64,000 nt of DNA from Balneolaceae bacterium (lineage in GTDB: Bacteria; Bacteroidota; Rhodothermia; Balneolales; Balneolaceae). Both the position numbers and the translations under genes were made by a program. Location of the stretch: contig JAFIES010000145.1 of the NCBI GenBank assembly GCA_020832415.1, positions 1 to 64,000 on the forward strand. The letters are read 5' to 3'. Positions 18,963 to 48,511 of the stretch are shown here, in pieces. How positions within the stretch are numbered: position 1 is the first letter of the stretch; every line of letters begins with the position of its first letter. The notes below the pieces were generated by a model. It saw nothing but the letters and a program-made list of their open reading frames with translations. It ran no database searches and was not told the DNA's origin.

Positions 18963-20396
18963 TCAAACCGGCTTAATGCCTGTATTGCCACCATGTTCAA
19001 GCTCTATATCCATCAGCCGCCCGTTTGTCTGCCAGTTCCCGCCGGTAAAATCGGGTACATTGATTGGGCGTCCGTTGTTTGCAACCGACCATTCACTTAA
19101 TGGCGCTATAACGCTCCACAATACTCCGTCATAGACCGACATATCCAGCGGGATTCCATTACGAAGGCAATCAACAAGACGCCAGCTCATTAACGTATCA
19201 ATACCACCATGGCCTCCAATCTGCCGGGCAATATCTCCCACTCTTTTGCTTATTTCAGGTGTATACTTTTCCCTGAGATCAGCGAACTCCGAATCACTTA
19301 CCCAGCCACCATAGCTTCTGGAAAATCTTGGCGGTCTGTTTTGCACAATTCCTTCGGTTCCGCTGAGCAGATCGAAACGCACACCGGGACGAGGTGAGGT
19401 TACATCATGTTGCAACATAATGGTGCGACCTTTCTTCGTTTTAATGATGCTTGTATTTAAGTTGCCGCGGAATTTCGCACCTACAAACTGTTCGAATGCA
19501 GGATCTTCAGCTGCTAACTCTACGGCTGTTTTGCCCATCATAAAATCATTGGATGACACCGAAACCAGATAGTCCATCTGGTCGCCATTGTTGATGTCCA
19601 TCGCCTGGCAGAGAGAACCGAGGCCGTGCGTTGGATAGAGGTTTCCATCGCGGGTGGCATTTTCTTTAAGCCGCCACATATTATGGTAACGATGTGTAAA
19701 ATTGTGCGATCGCATAAGGTCGTGAATGTAGGCTCCTTCACCATGTATAATATCACCAAGGTATCCGTCACGCGCCATTCCAAGTGTCATCATGTTGAAA
19801 TCACCATAATTGGGATTCGACATCATCATGCAGTGCTTTCGTGTTCTTTCTGATGTTTCAACCAGCTGCCAGCACTCTTCAACAGTAACTGCTATGGGAA
19901 CTTCAACAGCTACATGCTTTCCCTGCTCCATTGCATAGATAGCTTGCGGAGCATGTAAATGCCATGGGGTGCCAATAATAATCAGGTCGAGATCATCCTG
20001 CTCGCACAATTTTTTCCACTCATCTTCGTGGCCGGAGTATAGTTCGGGTTCAAAATCAAAATGACGTACAGATTCTGCAGCTGCCTCTGTGTTGTCAGGT
20101 TCGAGATCACATAACGCACGAATTTCAACCCCATCAATCTGAGCCAGCCTTCGCATATTTCCTGAACCTCTACCTCCGAGGCCAATCGCTCCAATGCGAA
20201 CAACATCAATAGCCGGTGCTGAATATCCGTGCATATTGAACTGGGGTGTGTACTGCTTTGCTGCCTGTTCCTCAATATGGTTTAAGTTACTTTGAGCATC
20301 TTTTTGATCTGAACAGCTGCTAAGTAAACTTGCTCCTGCCAAACCTAAAGAACCAATACCCGTCAATTTGAGAAAATCTCTGCGATTGCTTTCCAT
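18963..20396 (-). CDS. Gfo/Idh/MocA protein, GH109-like (NAD-dependent glycosidase candidate), Tat lipoprotein
   Basis: 477 aa. NRRDFLK (4-10) Tat motif and lipobox ending at Cys28 (LLSSC). GLGGRG (72-77) binds NAD. The EKP motif of dehydrogenases is replaced by EVP (165-167, lysine lost), followed by TVEECWQLVE as in GH109. GAYIHDL and LYPTHG (253-258) correspond to the GH109 active-site segments. The protein is longer and more diverged than the GH109 reference type, lacking YQHD. Function proposed: cleavage of a glycoside by transient oxidation with bound NAD, in the periplasm or at a membrane. It may instead be a GH188-like or still unclassified member. Confidence 0.75.
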   Translation of the reverse strand: MESNRRDFLKLTGIGSLGLAGASLLSSCSDQKDAQSNLNHIEEQAAKQYTPQFNMHGYSAPAIDVVRIGAIGLGGRGSGNMRRLAQIDGVEIRALCDLEPDNTEAAAESVRHFDFEPELYSGHEDEWKKLCEQDDLDLIIIGTPWHLHAPQAIYAMEQGKHVAVEVPIAVTVEECWQLVETSERTRKHCMMMSNPNYGDFNMMTLGMARDGYLGDIIHGEGAYIHDLMRSHNFTHRYHNMWRLKENATRDGNLYPTHGLGSLCQAMDINNGDQMDYLVSVSSNDFMMGKTAVELAAEDPAFEQFVGAKFRGNLNTSIIKTKKGRTIMLQHDVTSPRPGVRFDLLSGTEGIVQNRPPRFSRSYGGWVSDSEFADLREKYTPEISKRVGDIARQIGGHGGIDTLMSWRLVDCLRNGIPLDMSVYDGVLWSVIAPLSEWSVANNGRPINVPDFTGGNWQTNGRLMDIELEHGGNTGIKPV

Positions 20397-20498
20397 CTGT
20401 TATTCCCGTGTTATAGAGGGATTTTTTCTGATTGATTGATCCCTCATTATCTGATAAGAAACAGCCGAAACTCTGCCTGTTTATGTTTTTGAAAGTAT

Positions 20499-20682
20499 TT
20501 AACGTGAGTTCTATATAACATTCATAAGAATCGTCAGTTAGAGCGCAGTCCCGACGCTTTTCAGGAGGGACGAAGTCGAAAACTCATATTTCGACTTCAT
20601 TCCTAGGAAAAAGCACCCTCGGAATTGCGCTCAATATGACGGGTTCAGTCATATTGTTCATTTTTATATCGAACTCACGTTA
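20499..20682. mobile_element. MITE-like element (family A), copy 2
   Basis: 184 bp. Left end TTAACGTGAGTTCTATATAA (20499-20518), right end TTATATCGAACTCACGTTA (20664-20682): 18 of 19 positions match as an inverted repeat. The interior is the reverse complement of copy 1 (GAATCGTC, GCGCAGTCCCGAC, GACGAAGTCGAAA, AATTGCGCTCAA). Located in the 370-bp gap between two GH109-like genes, upstream of the promoter region of the 18963-20396 unit. Confidence 0.7.
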
Positions 20683-20689
20683 TTTAAGC

Positions 20690-20743
20690 AAAAAAATGGC
20701 AATACAAGCAGTGTTTCCATCCCGATATTCTGCCTGTATTGCC
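20690..20743 (-). terminator. Rho-independent terminator
   Basis: Minus-strand GGCAATACAGGCAG pairs with CTGCTTGTATTGCC (20730-20743 and 20698-20711), followed by ATTTTTT. It ends the three-gene unit 24921-20767 and separates it from the MITE copy and the next GH109-like gene. Confidence 0.75.
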
Positions 20744-20766
20744 TAAAAGTATATTCGTAAAGAGAA

Positions 20767-22203
20767 TTATCTGATGCGTGTATTTCCGCCACCTGTCTCC
20801 AGGTTCACGTTCATTCCGCGCTCGTTTGTTCTCCATGAACCACCAGTAAAATCTGGCACTTTAACCGGCATAGAGCCATTCGCAACTGACCACTCACTGA
20901 GAGGAGTAATCGCTGTGGTTGCTGCAGAGTCGTACACGTCCACCTCTACAGGCAGACCGTTTCTCAGGCAGTCAATCAGCCTCCAGTCCATTGCATTTAC
21001 GCGAGCGTAAGAGTGTTCGGGTCTGCCTGTTTCATCAGCCAAACGAATCATCTCACTGAATACCTTGGTAATTCTTGGTGTGTACTCTTCTACAAGGGCA
21101 TCGTAATCAGCCTGTGGAATCCATCCATCCCTATAACTGAAACCGATTCGTCCCGGGCGGGCCAAATACGTTCCTTTGGTTCCGTTAATCATATGAAACC
21201 TGATTCCCGGGCGCGGAGTGGTTACATCATGTTGCATTACTATCGTTTTTCCATTGGCTGTTCTTACGAGTGTAGTGTTCATGTTTCCGCTAAAATTACG
21301 GCCAACATAGGGCTCCCAAAAACTGTCTTCAGCAGCCAACTCTTGAACTCTTTGTGCCATCATAAAATCATTGGTCTGCATCGATACCAGGTGATCGAAC
21401 TGATCTCCGTAGTTGATATCAAACATCTGAGCGATTGGCATCAGTGCATGCTGTGGATACAGGTTTCCATCTCTGTCGATGTTTTCATTCAATCTCCATA
21501 ATTCATGATACATGGTTTTATGGAAGATATGTGAGTTCATTAAATCGTGAATGTAACCGCCTTCTGCATGCAAAACTTCACCAAAAACACCCTGCCGTAC
21601 CATATTCAGTACGAATGATGCGTCTCCATAGTGGCAAGAGCTTGACATCTGCACAAAGTGTTTCTGCGTTCTTTCGGATGCCTCCACAATTTCCCAGCAC
21701 TCTTCAAGAGTATTTGCAGCCGGCAATTCCACATAAACATGTTTTCCATGTTCCATGGCATAGATTGCTTGTGGCGCATGGAGCTCCCATGGAGTGGCAA
21801 TACAGATGAGGTCGATATCATCGCGTTCGCACATTCGCTTCCAGTCTTCAGGCCCATCGGAGTAACCAACCGGATCGTGTGTGGCAGAAATAGCATTCAT
21901 TGAACGCTCCACCATTTCGGGGCGCACATCGTTCAGAGCCACAACTTCCACATTGGCAATACTGGCAAATCGGCGGGCAGTTCCTGAACCGCGATTACCA
22001 AGACCGGTTACCCCCACGCGAACTACATCCATTGGTGGTGCAGCAAAACCGTGCATATTGAAATGCTGTGTTCGAGTGCGTTCGGCCTGTTCTTTAATTT
22101 CTGCTAATTTCGATTCTACTTCGCGGCGGGTAGTACAACCGGCTAAAATTCCCAGTGTGCCTATTCCCGATAGTTTCAGAAAATCTCTGCGATTACTTTC
22201 CAT
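20767..22203 (-). CDS. Gfo/Idh/MocA protein, GH109-like, Tat lipoprotein
   Basis: 478 aa. NRRDFLK (4-10), lipobox ending at Cys23 (ILAGC). GLGNRG (67-72); ELP (159-161) in place of EKP; TLEECWEIVE follows. GYIHDLM (217-223) and LYPQH (248-252, here followed by Ala instead of Gly) mark the active site. MQHDVTTPRPG and PDFTGGSW near the end are shared with the other long paralogues. Third and last gene of the unit 24921-20767. Proposed role: NAD-cofactor glycosidase in the periplasm; linkage and sugar unknown. Confidence 0.75.
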   Translation of the reverse strand: MESNRRDFLKLSGIGTLGILAGCTTRREVESKLAEIKEQAERTRTQHFNMHGFAAPPMDVVRVGVTGLGNRGSGTARRFASIANVEVVALNDVRPEMVERSMNAISATHDPVGYSDGPEDWKRMCERDDIDLICIATPWELHAPQAIYAMEHGKHVYVELPAANTLEECWEIVEASERTQKHFVQMSSSCHYGDASFVLNMVRQGVFGEVLHAEGGYIHDLMNSHIFHKTMYHELWRLNENIDRDGNLYPQHALMPIAQMFDINYGDQFDHLVSMQTNDFMMAQRVQELAAEDSFWEPYVGRNFSGNMNTTLVRTANGKTIVMQHDVTTPRPGIRFHMINGTKGTYLARPGRIGFSYRDGWIPQADYDALVEEYTPRITKVFSEMIRLADETGRPEHSYARVNAMDWRLIDCLRNGLPVEVDVYDSAATTAITPLSEWSVANGSMPVKVPDFTGGSWRTNERGMNVNLETGGGNTRIR

Positions 22204-22274
22204 GATAACGTGTGTTTAATTGAGCGTTTGTTGAGTTTTGAGTTAGGAGATCAGTACACGTGACAACTTTGTTG

Positions 22275-23420
22275 TTACCCTTTGAACTGACTAAAGATTT
22301 TAAGTGCATTCTTGTTGTAAACTTTTTCAAGAACTTCATCCGGTAAAAAGATACCGTATATATGCCATCTGCCCTGCCGGTGATGGCTCGCATCTGCATT
22401 TATGTATTCATCATCGGTTTCCAAAAAACGGTAATAAATTCTGAAGGCCTCTACATTGGGGCGGGTATCTGTTCCAAACAGAATCCTGTCCTGGTATTTG
22501 ATCATAAATTTTCTGCAGGTATATGGCTGCCGGCCCAGCTCGCTGATACGTGCATTTATATCCACATACATATTTGGATATTTTTCGAGCCACATGGATA
22601 CACGCCCGAGTTCTTCCGGCAGATTGGCCATATGCGTGGCAATAAATGTTGTGTCCGGGTGGCGTTCAATCACACGATTTCGCTGATCAAGTATATCTTC
22701 TTTATCAGGGAATTCATCGCCGTAAAATGCCCAGTGCGGACGTTCGCCCAATTCATCATATCGCTCGTTATAGCGATCAACAGGGGTAAAAAATGCTTTT
22801 GGATCAGAAACATGCATCAAACATGGAATACCGAGTTCACCACATTTTGCCCAGAAAGGATCCAAACGAGGGTCATCTACCGGTACAATATTCCCATCTC
22901 TGTCTTTGGCTGTAAGCCCAAGTGATTTAAAAATCTTAACTCCGCGGGCGCCAAGTTCTACAGCATGTTCCAGTTTTTCGGCTTCCCGCTGTCCATAATT
23001 TGGCTCATCAATTTTGCTTAGATCAGGTGTAAAGAATACAACAAATCGATTTTTACTAATCCTCTGACAAGCCTTTATGTGTTCGATATAAAAATCATCG
23101 GCTGAGCGGCCATCAAGACTCACAACTTTCCAAACACCCGCTTCATCCATCTGTTTGAGGTATTCGGGGAGGCTGTCCAGATCACGAAGATGGTTGTGAA
23201 TATCAATAGCGGGATATTTTGGCTTTAGCACTTCGGTTTGCTTTACCACCATCTGCGAAACCGGCTCCCAGTCAATAAGCCGCAGATTCCCATTTTCAAC
23301 ATCAATATTTGAAGAGAGTTCTTTCGCTTTTGCAGGTGTTGAACCCATGAATCCCAGTCCTGCAAGTCCCAGACTTGCAAGCCCGCTTTTTTTCAGAAAT
23401 GTACGTCGGTTATTTCCCAT
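22275..23420 (-). CDS. Amidohydrolase-2 family protein, Tat-exported
   Basis: 381 aa. Unlike its lipoprotein relatives it has a twin-arginine signal (NRRTFLKKSG, 4-13; TPAKAK cleavage region near 32). HNH at 75-77 (DIHNHL), GVKIFKSLGL, LMHVSDP, THMANLPEE and FGTD give the family's metal residues; the GHIGEP of the siblings is MHVSDP here. Export through Tat implies folding and metal loading in the cytosol. It lies between two GH109-like genes (88 and 71 bp gaps) in one transcription unit. It is the most diverged of the six paralogues, so it may act on a different intermediate. Confidence 0.8.
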   Translation of the reverse strand: MGNNRRTFLKKSGLASLGLAGLGFMGSTPAKAKELSSNIDVENGNLRLIDWEPVSQMVVKQTEVLKPKYPAIDIHNHLRDLDSLPEYLKQMDEAGVWKVVSLDGRSADDFYIEHIKACQRISKNRFVVFFTPDLSKIDEPNYGQREAEKLEHAVELGARGVKIFKSLGLTAKDRDGNIVPVDDPRLDPFWAKCGELGIPCLMHVSDPKAFFTPVDRYNERYDELGERPHWAFYGDEFPDKEDILDQRNRVIERHPDTTFIATHMANLPEELGRVSMWLEKYPNMYVDINARISELGRQPYTCRKFMIKYQDRILFGTDTRPNVEAFRIYYRFLETDDEYINADASHHRQGRWHIYGIFLPDEVLEKVYNKNALKIFSQFKG

Positions 23421-23482: not shown

Positions 23483-23508
23483 GACATTTGCATGCTAATT
23501 AAAGTTGA

Positions 23509-24921
23509 TTAAAGAATGCCTGTAGTACCGCCACCATTTTCAAGGTTTACATCCATACCGCGCTGGTTTGTTTTCCATGCGCCGGATGTAAAATCAGGTA
23601 CCCGTACCGAATTGAACCTGTTTGCCACCGACCATTCGCTTAAAGGCGTGATAGCACTTGAGAGGGCAGCGTCATACACATCAATTTCAACAGGGAGGCC
23701 ATTTCGCAGGCTGTCGATCAATCTCCAGTCTGTAGCCGTTACATTAAAGTAAGAGTGGCCGGCACGTTCCGTATTTCTTGCCTGTTGTACCGCTTCATTA
23801 AATACTTTTGTGATTTCAGGTGTGTACTGATCAACCAGTTCCTGAAATTCCTCATCCGTATAATACCTTCTGTGATCGGTTGCAAAACGGCCGTTTGCAT
23901 AAAACCCTTCTGTACCGCTAAGCAGGGGCTGCTGCGGACGGGGACGTGGTGATGTTACATCGTGCTGAATCACAATGGTTTTACCCTTAGCCGTTTTCAT
24001 TGTGGTTACGTTCATGTTTCCGCGATAATCCTTACCTACATATTGTTCCCAGTATGAATCTTCAGCTGCCAGTTTTTTGGCTGTTTCACCCATCATAAAA
24101 TCATTGCTCGAAACTGAAACAAGATGCTCAACCGTATCACCGTAGTTCAGGTCCATCATCTGTGAAATAGGTATAAAACCATGCTGCGGATACAAACTGC
24201 CGTGCCTGCCAATATTTTCGTTCAGGCGCCACATGTTGTGGTACATATGCTTTGTGAAGTTATAGTCATTCAGCAAATCGTGAACATATGCACCTTCGGC
24301 ATGGATCAGCTCACCAAACACGCCATTTCGCACCATGTTTAGCAGAGCAGCCTGCCTGCCGCCATGGCAGGAACTGGACATCTGAACGCAATGCATCTTT
24401 GTGCGTTCAGATGTTTCCACCAATTCCCAGCATTCATCTATCGTGTTTGCTGCAGGTAGTTCTGTGTATGCATGTTTGCCGTTTTCCATTGCATAAACAC
24501 ACTGTACAGTATGCAGATGCCAGGGAGTTACGATCGCAACAAGATCAATATCGTCGCGTTCACAAACTTTTTTCCACTCATCCTCTCCTCCGGAATAACC
24601 GTCGGGGCGATGATGTGTGGTTTCTAAAATTTCTTTTCCTCGCTCTACACGATCGGGTTCCAGATCGCAAAGAGCTTTTATTTCAACTCCTTCAATACTT
24701 GCCAATCTCCTGGTGGTACCTGTACCCCGATTACCAAGCCCAATAATTGCCACTCCCACCGTATCTATTTTGGGAGCTTTATAACCGTGCATATTAAAAC
24801 TGTTTCTGTTATTCAGTTTAAAGGGAGTATTCTCTTTATTTGAACCGGAAAGGCCGGCACCCATTAAACCAAGGCCTGCGAGGCCGCTTTTTTTCAGGAA
24901 ATCACGACGGTTATTTTTCAT
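23509..24921 (-). CDS. Gfo/Idh/MocA protein, GH109-like, Tat-exported
   Basis: 470 aa. NRRDFLKKSG Tat motif (4-13), no lipobox cysteine. GLGNRG (61-66), ELP (154-156), TIDECWELVET, GAYVHDLL and LYPQHG (243-248). It is very similar to the 37167-38585 and 20767-22203 proteins, including the shared NFNMHGY-type segment after the signal and the PDFTSGAW ending, so these are recent paralogues. First gene of a three-gene unit directly downstream of the SusCD terminator. Proposed NAD-dependent glycosidase; the specificity is not predictable from sequence. Confidence 0.75.
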   Translation of the reverse strand: MKNNRRDFLKKSGLAGLGLMGAGLSGSNKENTPFKLNNRNSFNMHGYKAPKIDTVGVAIIGLGNRGTGTTRRLASIEGVEIKALCDLEPDRVERGKEILETTHHRPDGYSGGEDEWKKVCERDDIDLVAIVTPWHLHTVQCVYAMENGKHAYTELPAANTIDECWELVETSERTKMHCVQMSSSCHGGRQAALLNMVRNGVFGELIHAEGAYVHDLLNDYNFTKHMYHNMWRLNENIGRHGSLYPQHGFIPISQMMDLNYGDTVEHLVSVSSNDFMMGETAKKLAAEDSYWEQYVGKDYRGNMNVTTMKTAKGKTIVIQHDVTSPRPRPQQPLLSGTEGFYANGRFATDHRRYYTDEEFQELVDQYTPEITKVFNEAVQQARNTERAGHSYFNVTATDWRLIDSLRNGLPVEIDVYDAALSSAITPLSEWSVANRFNSVRVPDFTSGAWKTNQRGMDVNLENGGGTTGIL

Positions 24922-25058: not shown

Positions 25059-26621
25059 TTAGTTAGGATTTTGTACTAAGTTCGGGTTAACGTCAATCTC
25101 ACTTTCAGGGATGTACCATATTATTCGCGGATGATCCGGACCGATGGTTTGAGTACCAAGTGCAGGGAGATCGTTGGCAAGAGCCGGAAGATCATCTCTG
25201 AACTCCACACCGGGGTTACCGGGTGCAAGGTGTGTACCACGATAGTTTCTGAACATCGTTTTGTTGTTTCTGAATAGATCATGTGCTCTGTGCCCTTCAA
25301 AGAAGAGTTCGAGTCTTCTCTCTTCAAGAACCACATCCAGTACCGAGCTGTGATTTCCAAGATTTGAGAGGGAGTATAGTCCTTCAGAAGGAATATTAGC
25401 ACGAGTTCTCAGCTGATTTACGATATCCAGTGCTTCCTGCTCACGTCCGAGTTTGGCAAGTGCTTCCGCTTTGTTGAGATAGATCTCAGTATAGCGAATA
25501 AGCTCAGGATGTGAGAGTGAAAGTGCTCCTTCAGGTCCTACGAACTTTGTTACGTAGTATCTTGGGAAACCATTACGCTCACGCATTACGGGTCTGCCAT
25601 CAGGATGGTATTGAATTTCACCATTATCATCGAGAATATACTGAGGCTCGATGAATTGACGGCGCACATCCGTTGGCCACTGGTCTAACAGCTCGCGAAG
25701 AGCACCTGAGGCGTAATTTTCACCCCAACCGGAACCGTCACGTTCGAAGTACATCGAACCGATACCATGTCCACGACCATGGTCATCAGCCGCTGTATGG
25801 TGGATCGCAAAGATCGACTCACTACGTGTTTCGTTACTCATTGTAAAGTAGGATGGGTAATCATTCGTACCAATGAGCTGGTATCGACCTGAATTGATTA
25901 CTCTGTCAGCATATTCAAGGGCTGCCTGATTGTTCTCCATATAGAGATATACTCTTGAGAGAAGTGCCATAGCCGCTTCAGCTGAACCAAATGAACTCGA
26001 TTTAGACTCATTCATCAGCTGGTATGCCTGGGTAAGATCCTGTACAATGTAGTTGTACGTATCACCAACAGACTCACGTGCAGGACGCGCATTTACATCC
26101 GGCTCCCTCATGTATGGGATTCCAAGATTGCTTGTACCATGAGAATATGGCCGTGCGAATCCTTTTGCAATGTAAAGGTGCATCATTCCACGCAGGAAGT
26201 AATTTTCACCCAACAACTGATCCAGTTGAGCTGACTCGCCCGGAGATACAGCATCTATTACCGTATTGGTATTGTAAATCAGCTGATATCCTTGTCTCCA
26301 CAAATTCAGGGTATTTGGCATATCCGGATTGTGAAGATAGTTGTAGGTAAGCATCATCCTGTTGGATGTGGTACCACTAATCATCAGATCATCACTTCGG
26401 TAATCACCTGACTGATACATCATCATCACCAGGTTGTTTGTTCCTCCGGTCAGATCTTTCAAAAAGGCGTAATTACCTCTCGTTACATTTTGTACTCCTT
26501 CCACACCTGCAAGTGCTTCTTCCGGCGGAACTCCATCAAATGGGGCTCTTGTGATATCACACGCCGATAAAAGCATGATGAGGAAGAATACAACAGCAGC
26601 TTTTAAATTTATTAGTTTCAT
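25059..26621 (-). CDS. susD: SusD/RagB-family surface glycan-binding lipoprotein
   Basis: 520 aa. Lipobox ending at Cys21 (LLSAC). SusD-type N-terminal region with GNYAFLKDL and NLWRQGYQLIYNTN, a TPR-like middle (RGMMHLYIAKGFARPY, AMALLSRVYLYMENN), and the typical C-terminal LIRYTEIYLNKAEALAKLG, VLEERRLELFFEGHRAHDLFR. SusD caps the SusC channel and delivers oligosaccharides to it on the outer membrane. 31 bp after susC and followed by a terminator, so the pair forms one unit. The name is by family; the ligand is not maltose-specific on this evidence. Confidence 0.92.
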   Translation of the reverse strand: MKLINLKAAVVFFLIMLLSACDITRAPFDGVPPEEALAGVEGVQNVTRGNYAFLKDLTGGTNNLVMMMYQSGDYRSDDLMISGTTSNRMMLTYNYLHNPDMPNTLNLWRQGYQLIYNTNTVIDAVSPGESAQLDQLLGENYFLRGMMHLYIAKGFARPYSHGTSNLGIPYMREPDVNARPARESVGDTYNYIVQDLTQAYQLMNESKSSSFGSAEAAMALLSRVYLYMENNQAALEYADRVINSGRYQLIGTNDYPSYFTMSNETRSESIFAIHHTAADDHGRGHGIGSMYFERDGSGWGENYASGALRELLDQWPTDVRRQFIEPQYILDDNGEIQYHPDGRPVMRERNGFPRYYVTKFVGPEGALSLSHPELIRYTEIYLNKAEALAKLGREQEALDIVNQLRTRANIPSEGLYSLSNLGNHSSVLDVVLEERRLELFFEGHRAHDLFRNNKTMFRNYRGTHLAPGNPGVEFRDDLPALANDLPALGTQTIGPDHPRIIWYIPESEIDVNPNLVQNPN

Positions 26622-26652
26622 ATTTATCCGTTTTTATCTTTCTAAATTCTGT

Positions 26653-29619
26653 TTAAAAGCCCAATTCAATACCGAAGAGGTATGTTTTGGCAATTGGGTA
26701 TCCGCCACCGCCTACACCAGATGCCGGATCTTTACCCGGATAGCTGGTGAACGTAAGCAGGTTATCACCACTTGCGTACACTCGCAGGCTTCTCATACCG
26801 AGAGATTGCATAATGCCGCTGTCTGATGGTAAGTCATAAGAAATTCTTGCATTTCTTAAGCGCAGGTACGAGCTGTCGTACAGGTAGAGAGAAGATTCTA
26901 ACACAGCACTGTTGTTACCATTTACGATTTGCGCAGGGTGAGTTGCATTATCGCCCGGCTGTCTCCAGAAGCTTTCGCCCGGCTGCAGTTTTCGTTTGTT
27001 CATGGTCATGTATGCGCCATGATCAAGTCCCTGTGAACCGAGATATCGCTGGCTTCCCTGCTCGAACGTAAAGAATGCATTGAAGGAGAAGTTGCCATAC
27101 TGGAACGAATTGTTCAGACCACCCTGAAATTTAGGAGTTGTAGCACCTACAAGTTGTGGATTTGCAACACCATAATCTTCGGTAATGTCTGTGGCTATGA
27201 TATCGCCGTCATCATTTCGGGTTACAACTTCCCACTGAGGAGCACCTGTTTGTGAATTCACACCGTGCCATTTTCTCATATAGATGGAGTTGATATCGTG
27301 ACCTTCCTGCATTCTGTAGATTCCACCATAGTTGATGGGTTCACCATCACTAAGACCGGTAACTCTGTTTCTGTTACTGCTTACAGTCAGCGTTGTATTC
27401 CAGTTAAATCGTGTTGACTGAATATTACGTGTGGTGATCTGAAACTCGATACCATGGTTTCGTACACTACCAACGTTTTGCAGCTGGCTGCTGATTCCAC
27501 TTGTACCGGGTAAGGTTACATTCTGGAGAAGATCTTCATTATCTCTTCGGTATACATCCACTGAGAAATTCACGCGGTCCATGATATCAACATCAAGGCC
27601 AACGTTAATTGTTTTTGCAACTTCCCATGTAAGATCAGGGTTTGGAGTACGTGAAGGCCAGCTGGCCGGAACTCCGAAATAGGACCTTGTAAACTCATAC
27701 AGTCCAAATGCACCGTAGTTACTGATCTCAGCATTACCGGTTGTACCGTAACTTGCGCGAAGTGCTAACTGATCGAGGAAATCAACATCTTGCATAAAGG
27801 CTTCATTACTCAGAATCCATGAACCGGAAACCGACCAGAAGTTACCCCAGCGATTGTTGGCACCAAATCGGGATGAGCCATCACGACGGAAAGATACTGT
27901 TGCAATGTAGGTTTCGTCCCACTCATACTCAGCCTGAGCAAGGAATGAGGCAAATGCACTTTCGTTGATGTTACCCGCAGTTGAGAAAGCTGTTGCTGCA
28001 GAGCTTAAGATTTGCATACCGGGAGCCAGACCAATACCGGTTACCCAGGCATTTTCACTTCTGTTATCCTGATATTCAAAACCTGCGAGACCACTCAGTG
28101 ACTGACGTTCCCAGCCTTTATTGAAATTGAACAGGTTCGATGTAATCACAGAGTGTGACTGATCGTTTCTGTTTTCAATCTGTCCATTTCGTGGAGCACC
28201 GGCAGCAGAACGTGAATCCTGGAAGATTTCACGAACGCCATTTCTCAATGAGAAGCGATTGTTCGTTCTGAATGATACCCAGTCTGCAATGTTATAACGC
28301 AGGTTCAAATCACCTGAAAAGTAACTTACATCGTTTGCATCGTAGTTCCACTGCATTCCGTGAATCGGATTTTCAGAATCACGTGAGTACCAGTCCGCTT
28401 CTCGGCCTGTTCGCACAGTTCCATCAGCATTATGAGGAGCATCCCAAGGTAAATTACTCACAGCAAAACGGAGCATGTTGTATGGGTTACCGGCCACCAC
28501 ATCAAATCTGCTTGAATAGGTTCCGGATACCTGTGCACCAATTTCAATGCGATCGGTCAGGTTATGCTGAACATTTACTCGTCCGGAAAGGCGATCGAAG
28601 TTGGTTCCAACACCTGTACCCTGCTCATTGTAATAACCACCTGAGAGGTAAAATCTGGTATTGTCATCACCACCTGAAACAGAAGCTTCAAAGTTTTGTG
28701 TTCCGCCACCATCAAAACCAACATCAAACCAGTTAGTGTCGTTTGCAAGTACATCTGGTCTGTTATAAAATGGACCTGAAGAAGCATTCACCAAATTCTG
28801 GTGCCAGTCATACAGTTCTTCTGCATTCATAAATCTTTCGTTGCCCTGAAGTGCCTGACTGAAACCAACTGAAGAACGTACGTTCACCTGAGTTGATCCC
28901 GACCGGCCTCTTTTTGTAGTAATAACCACAACACCGTTTGATGCACGAGAACCATAAAGAGCTGTAGCAGCAGCATCTTTCAGAACAGTAATCGAAGCAA
29001 TATCAGACGGGCTAACCGCATCACGGGCGCCTGTTCCTGCAATAATACCATCAATCACATAGAGTGGTGAAGATGATGCAGAAATTGAGCCTCGTCCACG
29101 AACTTCAATAGAAGAATTTGCTCCCGGCTGTCCTGATGATCTGTTAACAACCACACCGGCCATCTGGCCCTGTAGCATGTCAACCGGATCGTGCGTTGCA
29201 ATAACATTTAAATTTTCACCGGAAACCTGAGAGACAGAGCTTGTAACCTGCCGCTTAGAGATCGTTGCATAACCAAGTACGATAACCTCATCGAGGGTAG
29301 CAGTACTTTCGTTTAGCTGAATATTAATTACTGAATTGCCATCGACGGCCACGTCTCTGGATTGAAAGCCAATGTAAGAGAATCTCAACGTAGCATTTGA
29401 GGCTACAGATATTGAGTATTCCCCGTCAAGGTTTGTCACCGTACCACCTGATTCACCAACTATAGAAACATTCACACCCGGCAATGTTTCACCTGTGTCG
29501 GCTGAGGTAACAGTTCCGGTAACTGTTATCTGTTGTGCATTAATAGTAGTAACTGCTATTAATAGTATTAATACACTGAATCCCAACTTTAATAGTGAGG
29601 AATGTATTTGTTTTCCCAT
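26653..29619 (-). CDS. susC: SusC/RagA-family TonB-dependent outer-membrane transporter
   Basis: 988 aa. Signal peptide (to about 28, INAQQ), carboxypeptidase-regulatory-like domain 30-105 (VTGTVTSADTGETLPGVNV), TonB-box region DEVIVLGYATISK (about 111-123), plug domain with the usual SIEVRGRGS and VIDGI motifs, and a beta-barrel ending in YLFGIELGF with terminal Phe. It imports oligosaccharides with SusD using TonB energy. No sensor sigma/anti-sigma pair or hybrid two-component gene is adjacent. The upstream 396-bp gap contains an AgaR-like site, which suggests repression rather than the usual PUL regulators. Confidence 0.92.
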   Translation of the reverse strand: MGKQIHSSLLKLGFSVLILLIAVTTINAQQITVTGTVTSADTGETLPGVNVSIVGESGGTVTNLDGEYSISVASNATLRFSYIGFQSRDVAVDGNSVINIQLNESTATLDEVIVLGYATISKRQVTSSVSQVSGENLNVIATHDPVDMLQGQMAGVVVNRSSGQPGANSSIEVRGRGSISASSSPLYVIDGIIAGTGARDAVSPSDIASITVLKDAAATALYGSRASNGVVVITTKRGRSGSTQVNVRSSVGFSQALQGNERFMNAEELYDWHQNLVNASSGPFYNRPDVLANDTNWFDVGFDGGGTQNFEASVSGGDDNTRFYLSGGYYNEQGTGVGTNFDRLSGRVNVQHNLTDRIEIGAQVSGTYSSRFDVVAGNPYNMLRFAVSNLPWDAPHNADGTVRTGREADWYSRDSENPIHGMQWNYDANDVSYFSGDLNLRYNIADWVSFRTNNRFSLRNGVREIFQDSRSAAGAPRNGQIENRNDQSHSVITSNLFNFNKGWERQSLSGLAGFEYQDNRSENAWVTGIGLAPGMQILSSAATAFSTAGNINESAFASFLAQAEYEWDETYIATVSFRRDGSSRFGANNRWGNFWSVSGSWILSNEAFMQDVDFLDQLALRASYGTTGNAEISNYGAFGLYEFTRSYFGVPASWPSRTPNPDLTWEVAKTINVGLDVDIMDRVNFSVDVYRRDNEDLLQNVTLPGTSGISSQLQNVGSVRNHGIEFQITTRNIQSTRFNWNTTLTVSSNRNRVTGLSDGEPINYGGIYRMQEGHDINSIYMRKWHGVNSQTGAPQWEVVTRNDDGDIIATDITEDYGVANPQLVGATTPKFQGGLNNSFQYGNFSFNAFFTFEQGSQRYLGSQGLDHGAYMTMNKRKLQPGESFWRQPGDNATHPAQIVNGNNSAVLESSLYLYDSSYLRLRNARISYDLPSDSGIMQSLGMRSLRVYASGDNLLTFTSYPGKDPASGVGGGGYPIAKTYLFGIELGF

Positions 29620-29735: not shown

Positions 29736-29756
29736 GTTTCGTTTTTGTGTTTTTGG
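29736..29756. promoter_or_regulatory. Candidate AgaR/DeoR-type operator upstream of susC
   Basis: GTTTCGTTTTTGTGTTTTTGG. TTTCGTTT core followed by a T-rich half, about 120 bp before the susC ATG. The rest of the 29620-30015 gap is AT-rich with no gene; it also receives the end of the FGGY-kinase operon, for which I see no clear terminator. Confidence 0.4.
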
Positions 29757-31530: not shown

Positions 31531-31556
31531 AGCAGCTTACTCCCGGATTTAATCCA

Positions 31557-32564: not shown

Positions 32565-32580
32565 AAATTGCTTATCCCTT

Positions 32581-33444: not shown

Positions 33445-33529
33445 TATTTTTGAATGAACGCTTTCTGTATGGTAACGTGATGGTGACCGATGGTTAATCC
33501 GCCACCATCATGTTACATCGCATCAATTG

Positions 33530-34912: not shown

Positions 34913-34951
34913 AATGCGTACCAATTTTTTAAATCGTGTTTGTTAATAAAT

Positions 34952-36115: not shown

Positions 36116-36157
36116 AACAGACTCCTTTTTTAGTGAACCATGGGGGGTATTTCCCGG

Positions 36158-40079: not shown

Positions 40080-41165
40080 TTAAAGATCTTTTAATGGCGG
40101 AAACCACTTCTCAGCATTTTCTGAGAAGAGTTTATCCACCACATTTTTTGGGAGTTTAAGCCCCCTGAATTCTCCTTCTAAGCCAGAAACTTCCATGGTA
40201 TTATCAGTCACAAAAAATTCCCAGTCTTGCAGCCACATTGAGTGCGCCCTTGCAGCGGCCTGTTCGGGATCTGCTCCGGGGTTTTCTGTTAAATCTGTTG
40301 AGTAGATCAGTTGATCCTGATAGGTAATGAAAAAGTCGCGGGTTTTTTCCCTATCCTGCTCCGCCTCAAAATAGATATGGCGCATTCTGGCAGCCATCTC
40401 GAGTGCAACATTTGGGTACTGCTCCATGTGCTCACTCATTACATCAAGGCTCCACTCCATACTGCCAAGATGTGCTCCTACAAAAACCAAATCGGGATGT
40501 TTATCAAGTCGATTATCCCGCGATTCCATGATTGATTCATACGATGGATAATCAGGGTGCAGGTACATATGGTACTGCGGATTGTTTGAGAAATATCCCC
40601 TGTGCATCTGCATCTCTTCCAGTGGCAGCCAGGCTTCGCGAGGCTCACCCAGGTGACCGAGAACAGGCTTGTTATTTTCTATGAGATATTCGAAAATGGG
40701 ATCGAACCCGGGATGATCGATCATAATGAACTCACCGTTTTCATCCTGAAATTCCATCCCGATATTCTTCCAGATTTTCAGGCCAATGGCACCTTTTTCG
40801 AACGACTCTTCAAGATATGCAAGTGTATTCTCGAGCCACGTATCGTAATCGTCCCAGCCAGCCATCGAAAAAGCAGTGAGCCATACTGTATTATCCGGAA
40901 AATTCTGTTTTACAGAAATAGCCGCTTCCCGCTGAACTTCAATGGAGTAGTCCGGGAAATAAATATCCACATTCACATTCACCAGTTTGAAATTATCCTC
41001 AAGTGCCTGTCTGGCAATAGCACTGTTTGGCTGGTTGATATGAACGTGGATATCGGTTTTTTGAACAGAACTGTAATCATCCAAAGAGTAATACTCTTCT
41101 GCACATCCCCAAAATAGAGCAAGTGGCAAAAGCCAGATAATTTGTAATCGAGAGTATCTACTCAT
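40080..41165 (-). CDS. Amidohydrolase-2 family lipoprotein
   Basis: 361 aa. Lipobox ending at Cys21 (ALFWGC). HVH at 40-42 preceded by YYSLDDYSSVQKTD. GHLGEP, GAHLGSMEWS and YSTD follow as in the 11378 and 44647 paralogues, with which it shares most of its length (IGLKIWKNIGMEF, NPQYHMYLHPDYPSY). Located between the unknown lipoprotein (69-bp gap, with a hairpin) and the GH109-like gene at 38631-40046 (33-bp gap), so it is produced together with them. Function unknown. Confidence 0.8.
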   Translation of the reverse strand: MSRYSRLQIIWLLPLALFWGCAEEYYSLDDYSSVQKTDIHVHINQPNSAIARQALEDNFKLVNVNVDIYFPDYSIEVQREAAISVKQNFPDNTVWLTAFSMAGWDDYDTWLENTLAYLEESFEKGAIGLKIWKNIGMEFQDENGEFIMIDHPGFDPIFEYLIENNKPVLGHLGEPREAWLPLEEMQMHRGYFSNNPQYHMYLHPDYPSYESIMESRDNRLDKHPDLVFVGAHLGSMEWSLDVMSEHMEQYPNVALEMAARMRHIYFEAEQDREKTRDFFITYQDQLIYSTDLTENPGADPEQAAARAHSMWLQDWEFFVTDNTMEVSGLEGEFRGLKLPKNVVDKLFSENAEKWFPPLKDL

Positions 41166-41234: not shown

Positions 41235-42806
41235 TTAGTAATTCAGTGTAATTGTTCCTGTTTCACCCTGAATGTCACGCCCGTGAATTTCAATGTGAAG
41301 CACACCTGCGGCTGCATCGTATTCGTGGGATAAAACACTCAGAAACTCATTGTTCGACTCAATGCTTCTCGGCTCATTCGTTACCACTTTAACCGTTTGT
41401 GTTCCATACATCTGGATTTCGAATGTAAACCGGCTGCTGCTGTTGGTAACATCGTACACATTGTATGTGCCTGTATTGTTCACAAATCTCGGCATTTTTT
41501 GAGAGCCCACTTCATAGGTAAATTCATACACTTCCCTTTCCAGTCTTGGCAGATAGATATATCCAAAGCCGGCCTCTTCGAAATATGCAGAAATCGGGTT
41601 GCCGTTTATGGATGCACTGGAAACATGCTGTCCATCTTCCAAAGCCACAGCCAGAACCATTCCGCCAAGCATATCATATTGATAAGCTTGTTCGGCCATG
41701 TTTCTGTTGTCGATCTGCACGGTGCCGGGGCTGTTTTCAGTTACTGTAGCATATCGCTGATATAACCACTGGCTGTAAAGCTGTTCATTATTTTTTGCCA
41801 GGTAGTGATTTGGATGAGCCTGAATTTCACGAAAATAAGCGATCCATCTTTGATTCAGTGCAGGCTGCAGAAAATCATCGGGAGCCAGCCAGTTTGCCCA
41901 ATGGCTTTCAGTTAAATCTGTCAGATAATCATCCACGGGCTCATCGGGCACGTCGGAATAACGGTGCCATACGGGTCCGTAATCATGCCGGTCAAAAAGC
42001 AGAACTCCATGATCGAAACCACCGGTGCCCCATTCCGGAAAACCGATATCAGGGCTGAGCTGGAATTTTGTATTTCCATATTTTACGCCATAATCCGACC
42101 AAATTTTACCGGTACTCACATCACCATCGGGATTCCAGTGGTAGCCGTATGCACTCATACTTTCAGGGAATGAATGGCCATTCTCTTCTGAAATTCCGTA
42201 CTGTGCCAAAATTTTTCCAATAAGATCCATCCGCCCGCGCATCTCCTCTTCGGGCCATGCGTACTGCTCATAAACATTGTACCACTCCGAGCGATGTTTA
42301 ATGCCATCAATCCAGTATTCGTGCCCAACACCGGTAACACCCAGCTCGATGTGGTTTGCATTGCTCTTCACATAATCCATGATTTCGAGCTGCGTTGGAC
42401 CTATGTTTCGGGAGTTATCAAATTCAGATCCCCACATAGTAACCGTGGGGTAGTTTGCCACTACATTCAGTCTGTCCATTTCAGCAAGCGCAAATAGCGT
42501 AAGAAAACGAACACCCACTGCTTCGCCAACTTCTACGAAAGGTTTGTAATCCCGAACGTCAAACATTCTGCGTATACCTGCACGCCAGGGACCTTCACGG
42601 GTTTCTTCAACATCGCCCATGTTGCTTCCATCCATATAGCCAACCTGGTTTACGGCGATTCCGAACCCTCTCGGGAAAATAATACCATCATTACTCGTGT
42701 CAGTATCACTATTTGATGCTATTGCCTGTTGCATACTGCAGCCCAAAAGCCCAATACTCACAATTAAAATAGATAGTGTAAAAGAAATTCTGTTGATGTT
42801 AATCAT
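41235..42806 (-). CDS. Uncharacterised lipoprotein, possibly polysaccharide-deacetylase-like
   Basis: 523 aa that I do not recognise with confidence. Lipobox ending at Cys23 (GLLGC). Residues about 45-330 look alpha/beta: EVGEAVGVRFLTLFALAEMD, then HIELGVTGVGHEYW, ISEENGHSFPESMSAYGYHW and GGFDHGVLLFDRHDYG. The expression HIELGVTGVGHEYW is reminiscent of NodB-type deacetylases (xxxLGxHGxxH), and a distal domain from about 390 to the end is beta-strand-rich and may bind carbohydrate. It is second gene of the unit 44284-37167, between a typical GH109-like gene and an amidohydrolase. A carbohydrate esterase or hydrolase is a guess only. Confidence 0.45.
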   Translation of the reverse strand: MININRISFTLSILIVSIGLLGCSMQQAIASNSDTDTSNDGIIFPRGFGIAVNQVGYMDGSNMGDVEETREGPWRAGIRRMFDVRDYKPFVEVGEAVGVRFLTLFALAEMDRLNVVANYPTVTMWGSEFDNSRNIGPTQLEIMDYVKSNANHIELGVTGVGHEYWIDGIKHRSEWYNVYEQYAWPEEEMRGRMDLIGKILAQYGISEENGHSFPESMSAYGYHWNPDGDVSTGKIWSDYGVKYGNTKFQLSPDIGFPEWGTGGFDHGVLLFDRHDYGPVWHRYSDVPDEPVDDYLTDLTESHWANWLAPDDFLQPALNQRWIAYFREIQAHPNHYLAKNNEQLYSQWLYQRYATVTENSPGTVQIDNRNMAEQAYQYDMLGGMVLAVALEDGQHVSSASINGNPISAYFEEAGFGYIYLPRLEREVYEFTYEVGSQKMPRFVNNTGTYNVYDVTNSSSRFTFEIQMYGTQTVKVVTNEPRSIESNNEFLSVLSHEYDAAAGVLHIEIHGRDIQGETGTITLNY

Positions 42807-42919: not shown

Positions 42920-44284
42920 TTAAAAATCACCATCGAGACCAAATGATGGTTTTTTGTTCACCCATTTCCCGTCAGTAAAGTCCGGAAAATCAACCGGTGC
43001 ACTGCCTCTCGCAATTGACTGCTCAGACAGCGGGGTTACCGCAAGCATCATTACAGAATCGTACACATCAATCGGTGTTGGTAACTGCCGCTTAACGGCT
43101 TGTGCAAAAGCTCTTGTTTTGAGGTAATCTGCACCACCATGGCCGCCTCTTACTCCCGCTTCGAGGAAATTTTTCCAGAGCGGATGCTCATACTTTTCAC
43201 GATACGGATCGAAAGAGTGCCACTGCTTTGGAGTCATTCCATCCAGATAGATGGAGTTGTTGTCTTCCATCCAAAGGCCTTTTGTACCCTGAACACGACC
43301 CATATTTGAATAGGGTCTGGGCAGGTTTACATCATGGTTTATTACGATCGTTTCACCTCGTACAGTTTTCAGAACTGTGGTTACAATATCACCCAGTCCC
43401 CATTGTATGTCGGCATTGGGATGATCTTTGCCCCCATGTTCTCTTACATAAGCCTGCAATCCGCGCGATTTTGTGGCTGTTGATGTGAGTGAAACAAATC
43501 GGTTGCCATGGTTGATATCAAAAATAGTTGCGATGGGGCCAAGACCGTGTGTTGGGTAGAGATCGCCATTACGATGCATGGAGTGGTTGGTTCGCCACCT
43601 GGCTGCCCGCTCACCTTTTTCACCAAATTCTGCACCCGGCCGGAATTTCACGTATCGAATATCATGCTGATAGCCGCACTGCCCGTGAATAAGTTCACCA
43701 AATATTCCCTGGCGAACCATGTTCAAAACGGCAAGTTCCGAACGGTAGTAGTTGTGATTTTCAAGAAGCATAACCGGCATTCCGGTCTCTTCGGATGTTC
43801 TTACAATATCCCAGCATTCTTGCAATGAAAATGCACCACGTACTTCAGGTGCACAATATTTTCCATGTTTCAAAGCGGCAAGGGTCATCTCTGTATGCAA
43901 TTCCCAGGGTGTTGCAATCGCCACCCCGTCAATATCGCCGCGTTCCAGCAGATTTATATAGTCTTTCGGTCCGTTTGAGTATGCGGTTGGCTCATCGCCG
44001 CCGGCATCCACAACCATTTTCTGAACTTGGGCAAGACGCTCCGGGTTAATATCACAAATGGCCGGTATTTCCACATCATCCTGAAAGGTTAAACCCTGTA
44101 CAATATTGCCTCCCTGAGACCCTACTCCAATTACGGCAATTCTCGCTTTTCTGTCGTCTTTACCCTGAATAAAAGCAGGCGCTTTTTTCCCAAGGGCTAT
44201 ATTAGAAGGTATCATAGAGGCCCCGAGGCCGGCTAAAGTACCTTTCTTTAAAAATTCTTTTCTGTTGATTTTATTTCCCATCAC
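42920..44284 (-). CDS. GH109-family protein (NAD-dependent alpha-N-acetylgalactosaminidase type)
   Basis: 454 aa. It matches the known Elizabethkingia GH109 enzyme along most of its length: TPWELH, EVRGAFSLQECWD (147-159), NMVRQGIFGELIHGQCGYQHD (GYQHD at 204-208), WRTNHSMHRNGDLYPTHGLGP (LYPTHG 242-247), SRGLQAY, GDIVTT, HDVNLPRPY, GGHGGADY and PDFTDGKW. GVGSQGG (53-59) binds NAD; the EKP lysine is absent. The signal NRKEFLKKG (7-15) has Arg-Lys in place of the twin arginine. Known members hydrolyse alpha-GalNAc ends by reversible oxidation with bound NAD. First gene of a five-gene unit, divergent from an amidohydrolase gene. Confidence 0.85.
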   Translation of the reverse strand: MMGNKINRKEFLKKGTLAGLGASMIPSNIALGKKAPAFIQGKDDRKARIAVIGVGSQGGNIVQGLTFQDDVEIPAICDINPERLAQVQKMVVDAGGDEPTAYSNGPKDYINLLERGDIDGVAIATPWELHTEMTLAALKHGKYCAPEVRGAFSLQECWDIVRTSEETGMPVMLLENHNYYRSELAVLNMVRQGIFGELIHGQCGYQHDIRYVKFRPGAEFGEKGERAARWRTNHSMHRNGDLYPTHGLGPIATIFDINHGNRFVSLTSTATKSRGLQAYVREHGGKDHPNADIQWGLGDIVTTVLKTVRGETIVINHDVNLPRPYSNMGRVQGTKGLWMEDNNSIYLDGMTPKQWHSFDPYREKYEHPLWKNFLEAGVRGGHGGADYLKTRAFAQAVKRQLPTPIDVYDSVMMLAVTPLSEQSIARGSAPVDFPDFTDGKWVNKKPSFGLDGDF

Positions 44285-44540: not shown

Positions 44541-44646
44541 TACTAATAAATAGATTTAATAAACATTTCGAAAGGTTTTATTACTTTTTTACAGTTGAAT
44601 GTTCAATTACAACAGCTATACACTCTTATTAATCAGCACTAAGCCA

Positions 44647-45738
44647 ATGAAATATTTCTCTAACCATCTTCTCGGATCTTTACTTTGCCTTATCATAACC
44701 CTTACAGGATGTCAATCGGCTGAGGAGTACTACAATCTTGAGGATTACAGATCAGTAGAAAAAATTGATACCCATGTTCACATCAATACATCTGACCACA
44801 CACTTATTGAACAGGCACAAAAGGATAATTTTCGCCTGATAACTGTAAATGTTGATTCCCCAAGCTATCCAGACATAACTGTTCAGAGAGAGGTTGGAAA
44901 CCGGCTCAGAAATGAAACAGAAGGTCTCACTCAGTTTTTAACTACAATTTCACTGGAAAACTGGGACGATGCGGATCTATGGGTTGAAACAACAATTGCA
45001 TATCTGGAAGAGTCGATTGAAAAAGGAGCCATTGGGGTAAAATTCTGGAAAAATATTGGCATGGAGTTCAAAAATGCAGCCGGGGATTTCGTTATGATTG
45101 ACGATCCGCAGTTTGATCCTGTTTTTGAGTTTTTAACTGAACGTGGTATTCCGGTTCTTGGCCATATTGGTGAACCATACAGCTGCTGGCAGCCACTTGA
45201 AGAGATGGGTGTTAACTTTGTAAGGGAGTACTATGAAAACCACCCGCAATATCATATGTATCTGCATCCTGAAAACCCATCGTATGATGAGATCATCACT
45301 TCAAGGAACAATATGCTGGATAAACATCCGGACCTGATTTTTATCGGTGCCCATCTTGGCAGTATGGAATGGAGTGTGGAGATGATGCGTGAGCATCTGG
45401 ACCGATACCCAAATATGGTTTACGATATGGCGCACAGAGTAACTTTGCTTCAATATTTAACCCAGCAAGACAGAGATGGGGTACGCCGGATGTTTATCGA
45501 TTATCCGGATCGGTTTGTCTATTCAACCGATATTCAGCATCATCTGCACTCTGACCCTGAAAATATTCAGGCACTGGCTGAACGAACCTGGAAACAAGAC
45601 TGGGAATATTTTACCACAGACCATGAAATGATTGATGAAGAGGTTAATGATCAGACATTCAGAGGGTTAAAGCTGCCAAAAGATGTGGTGGATAAGCTCT
45701 ACAGGTTAAATGCGGAAAGAGTATTTAAAGGCATCTAA
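44647..45738 (+). CDS. Amidohydrolase-2 family lipoprotein
   Basis: 363 aa from the ATG giving MKYFSNHLLGSLL; the frame is open 16 codons further upstream, but only this start puts the signal peptide at the N-terminus. Lipobox ending at Cys22 (TLTGC). HVH 43-45 after YYNLEDYRSVEKID, GHIGEP, GAHLGSMEWS and YSTD. It is nearly collinear with the 11378-12478 and 40080-41165 proteins. Monocistronic, divergent from the five-gene GH109 unit and convergent with the small gene at 45750. Probably co-regulated with that unit through the shared AAACGA sites. The substrate is unknown. Confidence 0.82.
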   Translation: MKYFSNHLLGSLLCLIITLTGCQSAEEYYNLEDYRSVEKIDTHVHINTSDHTLIEQAQKDNFRLITVNVDSPSYPDITVQREVGNRLRNETEGLTQFLTTISLENWDDADLWVETTIAYLEESIEKGAIGVKFWKNIGMEFKNAAGDFVMIDDPQFDPVFEFLTERGIPVLGHIGEPYSCWQPLEEMGVNFVREYYENHPQYHMYLHPENPSYDEIITSRNNMLDKHPDLIFIGAHLGSMEWSVEMMREHLDRYPNMVYDMAHRVTLLQYLTQQDRDGVRRMFIDYPDRFVYSTDIQHHLHSDPENIQALAERTWKQDWEYFTTDHEMIDEEVNDQTFRGLKLPKDVVDKLYRLNAERVFKGI

Positions 45739-45749
45739 CTAAGAGGCAG

Positions 45750-46058: not shown

Positions 46059-46200
46059 TTATGATCCTCCGTAGATGGGTTAACTGAATGAACGCATATT
46101 AAAATCTGCCTGCACCATCAAAAATATCTGCGTATTCACAAAGAGTAAAATGGATCAAATTATTTACTGCAGGATCCTTTCAGAATTTAATTGAAAAATA

Positions 46201-47124: not shown

Positions 47125-47167
47125 TCTTCAATATGGATTTGTATTTAGAAAAAAATGCTTGTCTGGT

Positions 47168-48511
47168 TTAGTAACCGAGCTCTTCCGGCAGGAAGATGGG
47201 CTTATTGGTTACCCATTTGCCGCGTGTAAAGTCCGGAAATGATACTGCAGAACCTCCATTTGCAATCGATTGCTCAGACAACGCAACTATAGCAGCACTG
47301 CTTGCGGCATCGTACACATCAATAGGTGGTGTGGTTTTTTGCTTAACCGATTCGATAAATGCATTTCGGATGAAGAAATCCTTGCCGCCATGGCCCGCAC
47401 CACGTGCATCTTCTTCATGCTTTTTCCAAACCGACGAATCAAATTCATCCTGATATGGCTGGAATTCATCCCACCGGTGGTCGCGCGATCTGCCTTCTAT
47501 ATATATGCGATCTGCTTCGAGCTGCCACAGGCCATTGGTTCCCTGTACTCTGAATGCTTTATTGTTATCAGCACGGGGCAGAGTTGTATCATGTATAATA
47601 ATGACAGTTTCACCATTCGCTGTGGTGAGCGTTGCAGTTACAATATCTCCTTTTTTGAAATCGGCATCTCTGTATGGATGATTCTCACCTCCATGTTTTT
47701 TCACATAATTGCTCAATCCCTTAGCCTTGCTTGCTGCCGCTGATAGAGTGAGGTATTGATTCCCACGATGAATATCCAGCCAGTGACCAACCGCACCTGT
47801 GCCATGATCGGGGTAGAGTAAAGCATTTCGCTTTAAATTGTGTATAGTTCGCCAGTTTGAAGCACGTGCCCGGCCTTCGTGTGGACCAAATTGGGCATCA
47901 TCTCTGAAAAGAACACCATACAAATTGTGCTGATAACCACACTGTGCATGAACCAGCTCACCAAATAGCCCTTCACGAACCATATTCAAAACTGCCATTA
48001 CATCCCGCTGATAACATGTATTTTTTAATGGCATCAGCGGTACACCGGTCTCCTCGCAGGTATTCACAAGATCCCAGCAACCCTCTATGGAAATAGCCGC
48101 CGGAATTTCAAGCGCTACATATTTACCCGCGCGCATCGCAGCAACACTCTGCTCAACATGATATTCCCAAGGTGTGCTGATAAATACTGCATCGAGATCG
48201 TCACGCTCTACAAGTTTTTTATACGCATCCGGCCCGTCTGTGTAGAGTTCCGGGTTCCCTCTTCCGGCATCAAGAACCATTTGCTTGGCCCTTGCAGCAT
48301 TTTCAGAATCAAGGTCACAAATAGCCGGCACTTCAATATCGTTTCGGTTTAAAATTCCCCTTAAGTGTCCCGTTCCGCGTGAACCGGTTCCGATAAACCC
48401 TACCTTCACCAGGCGATCGTCTTTTTTTGTGGGCACATGAAATGATTTTAGCGGAAATGCCAAGCCGGCGGCTGAGGCAGAAGTGGTTTTTAAGAAATCT
48501 TTTCTATTCAT
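47168..48511 (-). CDS. GH109-family protein (NAD-dependent alpha-N-acetylgalactosaminidase type)
   Basis: 447 aa from the ATG giving MNRKDFLKTT; the frame is open 49 codons upstream but that part lacks sense as protein. Signal NRKDFLK (2-8) with Arg-Lys instead of Arg-Arg. GTGSRG (41-46), EIP (135-137), SIEGCWDLVNTCEETGVPL, GYQHN (192-196), LYPDHG (232-237), KAKGLSNYVKKHGG, FRVQGTNGLW, GAGHGGKDFF and PDFTRGKW follow the GH109 reference in order. First gene of a unit with a DMT transporter and a small protein, divergent from the agaS operon. This neighbourhood supports N-acetylgalactosaminide as substrate. Confidence 0.85.
   Translation of the reverse strand: MNRKDFLKTTSASAAGLAFPLKSFHVPTKKDDRLVKVGFIGTGSRGTGHLRGILNRNDIEVPAICDLDSENAARAKQMVLDAGRGNPELYTDGPDAYKKLVERDDLDAVFISTPWEYHVEQSVAAMRAGKYVALEIPAAISIEGCWDLVNTCEETGVPLMPLKNTCYQRDVMAVLNMVREGLFGELVHAQCGYQHNLYGVLFRDDAQFGPHEGRARASNWRTIHNLKRNALLYPDHGTGAVGHWLDIHRGNQYLTLSAAASKAKGLSNYVKKHGGENHPYRDADFKKGDIVTATLTTANGETVIIIHDTTLPRADNNKAFRVQGTNGLWQLEADRIYIEGRSRDHRWDEFQPYQDEFDSSVWKKHEEDARGAGHGGKDFFIRNAFIESVKQKTTPPIDVYDAASSAAIVALSEQSIANGGSAVSFPDFTRGKWVTNKPIFLPEELGY

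Follow-up and report, generated by a model that had tools for sequence, protein, structure and literature searches.

A gene cluster in the 64,000-nucleotide stretch of Balneolaceae DNA analyzed here (the window) probably imports and uses GalNAc-based sugars via NAD-cofactor enzymes rather than ordinary glycosidases. Seven proteins of the GH109 lineage surround its SusC/SusD pair. Four keep the complete catalytic set of characterized GH109 enzymes, whereas the other three belong to a previously unnoticed branch whose active site, judged from its sequences, appears to have been rebuilt.

Seven GH109-lineage proteins surround a SusC/SusD pair

The initial annotation had described a SusC/SusD pair amid seven Tat-signal Gfo/Idh/MocA proteins, and both the pair and the seven genes were found. 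The pair occupies positions 25059-29619 and consists of a SusD homologue (25059-26621, minus strand; PF07980/PF14322) and a SusC/TonB-dependent receptor (26653-29619, minus strand; PF13715/PF07715). The seven genes, all on the minus strand, are GH109_A (18963-20396), GH109_B (20767-22203), GH109_C (23509-24921), GH109_D (37167-38585), GH109_E (38631-40046), GH109_F (42920-44284), and GH109_G (47168-48511), the ATG of the last lying at 48511 within an open reading frame that opens at 48658. Tandem SusC/SusD genes with adjacent CAZymes, the arrangement that marks a polysaccharide utilization locus, are therefore present.

Membership in the GH109 lineage was supported by several lines of evidence. 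PF21252 and the NAD-binding domain PF01408 were matched above the Pfam cut-offs by each of the seven proteins, all of which also contain the E-[VLI]-[PR] and LYPxH segments noted earlier. Scores for PF21252, the GH109 C-terminal domain, reached 252 bits in GH109_F, 206 in GH109_G, and 123-133 in the other five (cut-off, 27). Full-length comparison with solved GH109 enzymes was made for GH109_F, which matched EmGH109 (2IXA; E 5e-123, residues 44-454), and for GH109_E, which matched AmGH109A (6T2B; E 3.5e-94, residues 45-462); the other five align with these two over their length. GH109_F and GH109_G form a 2IXA-like subgroup, and the remaining five group with AmGH109A. Kinship with GH109, originally proposed for two proteins, held for both and extends to all seven. 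Nothing in the PDB matches listed for GH109_E and GH109_F, among which SqgA (GH188) was absent, points to GH188. The Tat signals attributed to all seven were recognizable by an RR motif in five, GH109_A among them; GH109_F and GH109_G carry NRKEFL/NRKDFL instead.

The window encodes ten Gfo/Idh/MocA proteins in total, since three ordinary ones (6780-8087, 9785-11143, and 34952-36115) accompany the seven. The EKP lysine of Gfo/Idh/MocA dehydrogenases was found in these three only and is absent from all seven GH109-lineage proteins, which are not placed as EKP dehydrogenases and share E-[VLI]-[PR]. A reading of the seven as pure dehydrogenases was rejected because of this missing lysine. Across the 3.94-Mb, 95% complete genome, PF21252 had exactly seven matches, all inside the window and within 30 kb around SusC/SusD, and their clustering is therefore not a product of chance.

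A scan of the larger open reading frames between 3641 and 62841 revealed no classical glycoside hydrolase, polysaccharide lyase, or sulfatase that Pfam recognizes. This agrees with the initial annotation but holds for the core of the locus, because genes resembling pectate lyase, AXE1, and melibiase/GH31 are found in sister clusters and because a predicted secreted protein of 523 aa (41235-42806, minus strand) had no match in Pfam, NCBIfam, or the PDB. Relatives of the latter occur in 3 of the 395 phylum genomes searched, its own included, and its structure prediction from three sequences reached a pLDDT of 49. One relative lies near a remote KbaZ-like gene, a PfkB gene, SusCD, and an amidohydrolase.

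A widespread GH109 branch lacks the GGHGG histidine

Published roles in AmGH109A involve Tyr226 (C2 proton), His259, and His404, the last located in the GGHGG loop (PMC10755693). One sentence of that paper assigns the C3 role to His404; its own distances place His321, the equivalent of His404, at the C1-OH and His193 at the C3-OH. These distances, together with how a GH109 paper cited there is titled, make His404 the glycosidic acid/base, and we adopted this assignment against the sentence in question.

In an alignment of 130 sequences, Tyr226, His259, and His404 were all present in GH109_A (GGHGG loop), GH109_E, GH109_F, and GH109_G (GAGHGG loop, as in 2IXA). GH109_B, GH109_C, and GH109_D retain Tyr226 and His259 but have lost His404, their loops reading ...RPEHSYARV (B, without GGHGG), ...RAGHSYFNV (C), and ...RQSRGYAQV (D, without His). 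These three and 33 other sequences, mostly from Bacteroidota and Balneolota, make up an altered branch. In all 36 members, His404 is missing at the aligned position, the GGHGG loop is replaced, and the loop is extended and contains an invariant Tyr; in 34, a His also replaces the Tyr of the ENxxY motif of intact enzymes. In GH109_D, the new His and the Tyr are His188 and Tyr394. Given the loss of the GGHGG loop and the gain of this His and invariant Tyr, B, C, and D are not callable as GH109 glycosidases from sequence. Profile-based annotation would nevertheless label this widespread branch GH109, since its members match the family profile despite the missing catalytic histidine.

In a quick tree, the altered branch came out as a single clade within the intact type (SH-aLRT 99), and a more careful tree of 74 rows recovered it with SH-aLRT 99 and UFBoot 74 (72% of bootstrap trees). 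A single origin is likely rather than proven, as UFBoot reached only 74 despite the SH-aLRT of 99. The paralogues are not fresh duplicates, because each has separate relatives in other genomes. An altered-branch gene was also seen on an Acidobacteriota (Luteitalea) MAG contig (L080), reflecting either transfer or a binning error. Furthermore, each of three related clusters (G011, G015, and G005; contigs L036, L032, and L039) contains two additional GH109 genes of divergent sequence. These share 36-39% identity with GH109_F, show RGHGG/EGHG loops, lack ENxxY, and each adjoin a Tat-clade amidohydrolase.

Intact and altered GH109 genes neighbor different amidohydrolase clades

Of the nine PF04909 (Amidohydro_2) genes in the genome, six, paralogous to one another, lie in the window, a concentration with a probability of about 1.6e-10 under random placement. 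Among them are lipoproteins adjoining GH109_A (17754-18932, minus strand) and GH109_E (40080-41165, minus strand), both also assigned by clade, a lipoprotein divergent from GH109_F (44599-45738, plus strand), a predicted Tat-exported protein between GH109_B and GH109_C (22275-23420, minus strand; E 3e-27), and a cytosolic protein starting at 54597 (plus strand). These amidohydrolases fall into two clades, one lipoprotein/cytosolic and one Tat-linked. Altered-branch GH109 genes had a Tat-clade amidohydrolase as neighbor in 14 cases and one of the other clade in a single case, against 2 and 24, respectively, for intact A/E-type genes (Fisher 4.8e-8 for immediate neighbors, counted by gene and not by independent event). 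Each GH109 branch is thus accompanied by its own amidohydrolase kind, a pairing that is new here; our literature search found no paper describing GH109 together with these amidohydrolases.

The metal-binding set is HxH-K-H-H-D in the lipoprotein/cytosolic clade, with Q for the first H in 1 of 37 rows, and HxH, H, H, D in the Tat-linked clade, where strand 4 carries either K or a GxGE motif. PDB sequence searches with two amidohydrolase profiles returned nothing, or remote matches of the 2,3-dihydroxybenzoate-decarboxylase type only. The cytosolic protein at 54597 was predicted with a pLDDT of 95 as a generic amidohydrolase barrel; its nearest solved folds are mostly decarboxylases and uncharacterized amidohydrolases, together with a hydratase and COG3618 amidohydrolases, a mixed list that does not point to a deacetylase. 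A CehA/McbA-family metallohydrolase (12497-14563) also adjoins an amidohydrolase and is kept in G011 and G015.

An Aga-type operon links the cluster to GalNAc

Next to the GH109 genes, a plus-strand operon (49319-53540) encodes the Aga pathway by family homology, namely, an AgaS-like SIS protein (49319), a KbaZ-like protein (50514), a PfkB protein (51748) as Tag6P kinase, and a KbaY-like protein (52719). The AgaS match of 360 bits lies below the NCBIfam cut-off of 529, and KbaZ is likewise below its cut-off. A second plus-strand block (53661-57535) comprises an EamA transporter (53661), the cytosolic amidohydrolase (54597), and an SSF transporter (55727), and a DeoR-family regulator is found at 57630-58394 (minus strand; PF00455/PF08220).

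The presence of AgaS marks the use of GalNAc/GalN, for which AgaA/NagA is the usual deacetylase (PMC5583593, PMC3668189). No NagA/AgaA was found in this genome (best TIGR00221 score, 27 bits; cut-off, 226) or in the operon-bearing relatives G010, G011, G014, G020, and G025; a NagA-type protein is present in five relatives with parts of the cluster (G004, G005, G015, G016, and G019). Across 27 same-genus genomes, AgaS co-occurred with GH109 (p 1.4e-5) and with the 54597-type amidohydrolase (p 1.2e-5). Because NagA/AgaA was not found and its own type tracks AgaS, the 54597 protein, whose clade keeps the HxH-K-H-H-D metal set, is our leading candidate for the GalNAc-6-phosphate deacetylase otherwise missing from the pathway.

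Synteny, co-occurrence, and a common promoter site all tie the GH109 cluster to the Aga-type operon (AgaS-KbaZ-PfkB-KbaY-DeoR), which makes GalNAc or a close relative, rather than a whole glycan, the likely product. The promoter site, AAACGAAA, is a candidate operator upstream of SusC (29737-29744, minus strand), with further sites at 11218, 15546, 44514, and 49197. Five promoter regions of the window contain it, those of SusC and AgaS among them (0.37 expected; 0 of 2000 shuffles). In relatives, it again precedes AgaS in G004, G025, and G015 and also SusC in G004, and in G004 and G025 it separates GH109_F from its amidohydrolase. As the motif was picked by inspection, after looking at the data, we treat it as a lead only.

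GalNAc would not be the sole product, given a module for a second sugar at 30016-36991 (minus strand). This module, which looks complete, comprises an FGGY kinase (30016), a class II aldolase (31557), a protein that is mutarotase-like by eye (32581), a FucI/SftI-like isomerase (33530), the EKP-type Gfo protein at 34952, and a DhnA/LacD-type aldolase (36158). The idea that a whole glycan is dismantled was consequently not upheld, the linked operon pointing to one product sugar family (GalNAc/GalN) in addition to this second sugar. The window also encodes a PIG-L type de-N-acetylase-like protein (14577-15488, minus strand; PF02585 E 4e-24) and a GMC (FAD) oxidoreductase (15855-17570, minus strand; PF05199/PF00732, and synteny). 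In most sister clusters of the same genus, the latter shows 81-95% identity, exceeding the conservation of adjoining enzymes.

Gene order in relatives repeats the association. E-type GH109 genes lie beside AgaS-PfkB-PfkB-KbaY-Amidohydro_2-DeoR in Salegentibacter and Gillisia (Flavobacteriaceae) as well as in Balneolaceae. Order-level relatives place the E-type gene beside an SSF transporter and an APH-family kinase, a layout that resembles BT4240-50 of B. theta, in which a GH109 enzyme and a GalNAc kinase act together (PMC11992087). After the GalNAc/GH109 cluster of Salegentibacter agarivorans (L095, 12433-19450) come a DHDPS-family protein, SusCD, and a sialidase-like BNR protein, an arrangement that suggests a link to sialic acid.

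A model for the locus and its alternatives

We consider it reasonably probable that the window contains a GalNAc-centered utilization locus combining NAD-dependent GH109 enzymes with Aga-type breakdown, B, C, and D being rebuilt paralogues. SusC/D would import GalNAc-bearing oligosaccharides or glycoconjugates, from which exported GH109_A, E, F, and G would release GalNAc by NAD-dependent C3 oxidation, aglycone elimination, hydration, and reduction. Breakdown in the cytosol would then proceed through PfkB, a deacetylase, AgaS, KbaZ, and KbaY under the DeoR-type regulator, with the amidohydrolase at 54597 standing in for AgaA. B, C, and D would be old GH109-derived paralogues whose substrate is most likely a HexNAc that is modified or linked in another way, and a Tat-linked amidohydrolase would assist each of them. 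The six amidohydrolases, the GMC oxidoreductase, the EKP-type Gfo proteins, and an AP_endonuc_2 protein, none of them weighed in the initial annotation, may share the work.

The initial annotation instead took all seven proteins for NAD-dependent glycosidases of differing specificity that jointly dismantle a whole glycan, which now seems unlikely. Its glycosidase reading suits A, E, F, and G, which keep all published GH109 catalytic residues, but cannot be assumed for B, C, and D, which lack the GGHGG acid/base. Seven paralogues around SusCD and a core devoid of recognizable classical glycoside hydrolases speak for such a division of labor, and the age of A to E, old paralogues with separate relatives elsewhere, suggests separate roles. 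Yet the GH109 activities cited in PMC11992087 and PMC10755693 are on GalNAc, the linked operon is a single sugar pathway, pectate-lyase-like and melibiase-like genes occur in sister clusters, and one secreted protein has no family match. We judge it similarly doubtful that B, C, and D merely oxidize and eliminate while the Tat-linked amidohydrolase finishes cleavage, which would make the pair a new deglycosylating unit of Bacteroidota/Balneolota. The neighbor pairing, the retention of Tyr226 and His259 while His404 was lost, and the presence of the hydratase LigJ among the structural matches of a sister amidohydrolase are consistent with it; against it, the pairing was counted by gene, the acid/base might come from the new His and Tyr, both conserved, and a lost acid/base does not explain the partner, because intact GH109s pair with amidohydrolases too.

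Gfo/Idh/MocA and PF04909 proteins form a known dehydrogenase and lactonase pairing, and COG3618 amidohydrolases appear among the structural matches. An oxidative lactone route, in which the altered branch and other parts of the cluster act as sugar dehydrogenases and the amidohydrolases as lactonases, is nevertheless highly improbable: B, C, and D carry the GH109-type E-L-P instead of the dehydrogenase EKP lysine, and the linked genes are of AgaS/KbaY or isomerase/kinase/aldolase types, with no aldonate pathway seen.

Should the GalNAc-centered reading be true, a SusCD locus could make do with redox glycosidases of the GH109 type and dispense with classical enzymes, and the missing GalNAc-pathway deacetylase would gain a concrete candidate outside the NagA family.

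Comparison with known systems

All seven proteins share domain architecture and homology with EmGH109 (2IXA) and AmGH109A (6T2B), and A, E, F, and G share the full catalytic set; B, C, and D differ by lacking His404 and ENxxY and by their longer loop, invariant Tyr, and new His. The oxidoreductive principle is also that of GH188 sulfoquinovosidases, whereas the sequences here match GH109. SusCD, GH109, and GalNAc metabolism are held in common with the B. thetaiotaomicron locus BT4240-50, which combines GH109 and SusCD with GH2, an O-glycopeptidase, and a GalNAc kinase. In contrast, the present cluster has seven GH109-lineage genes and six amidohydrolases, no GH2 or peptidase was seen in it, and the tagatose (Aga) route replaces the GalNAc kinase. 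With the E. coli aga/gam regulon, it shares AgaS, KbaY, KbaZ, and a DeoR-family regulator; here no PTS was seen in the operon, AgaA/NagA was not found, Amidohydro_2 stands in their place, and the pathway is linked to SusCD and GH109.
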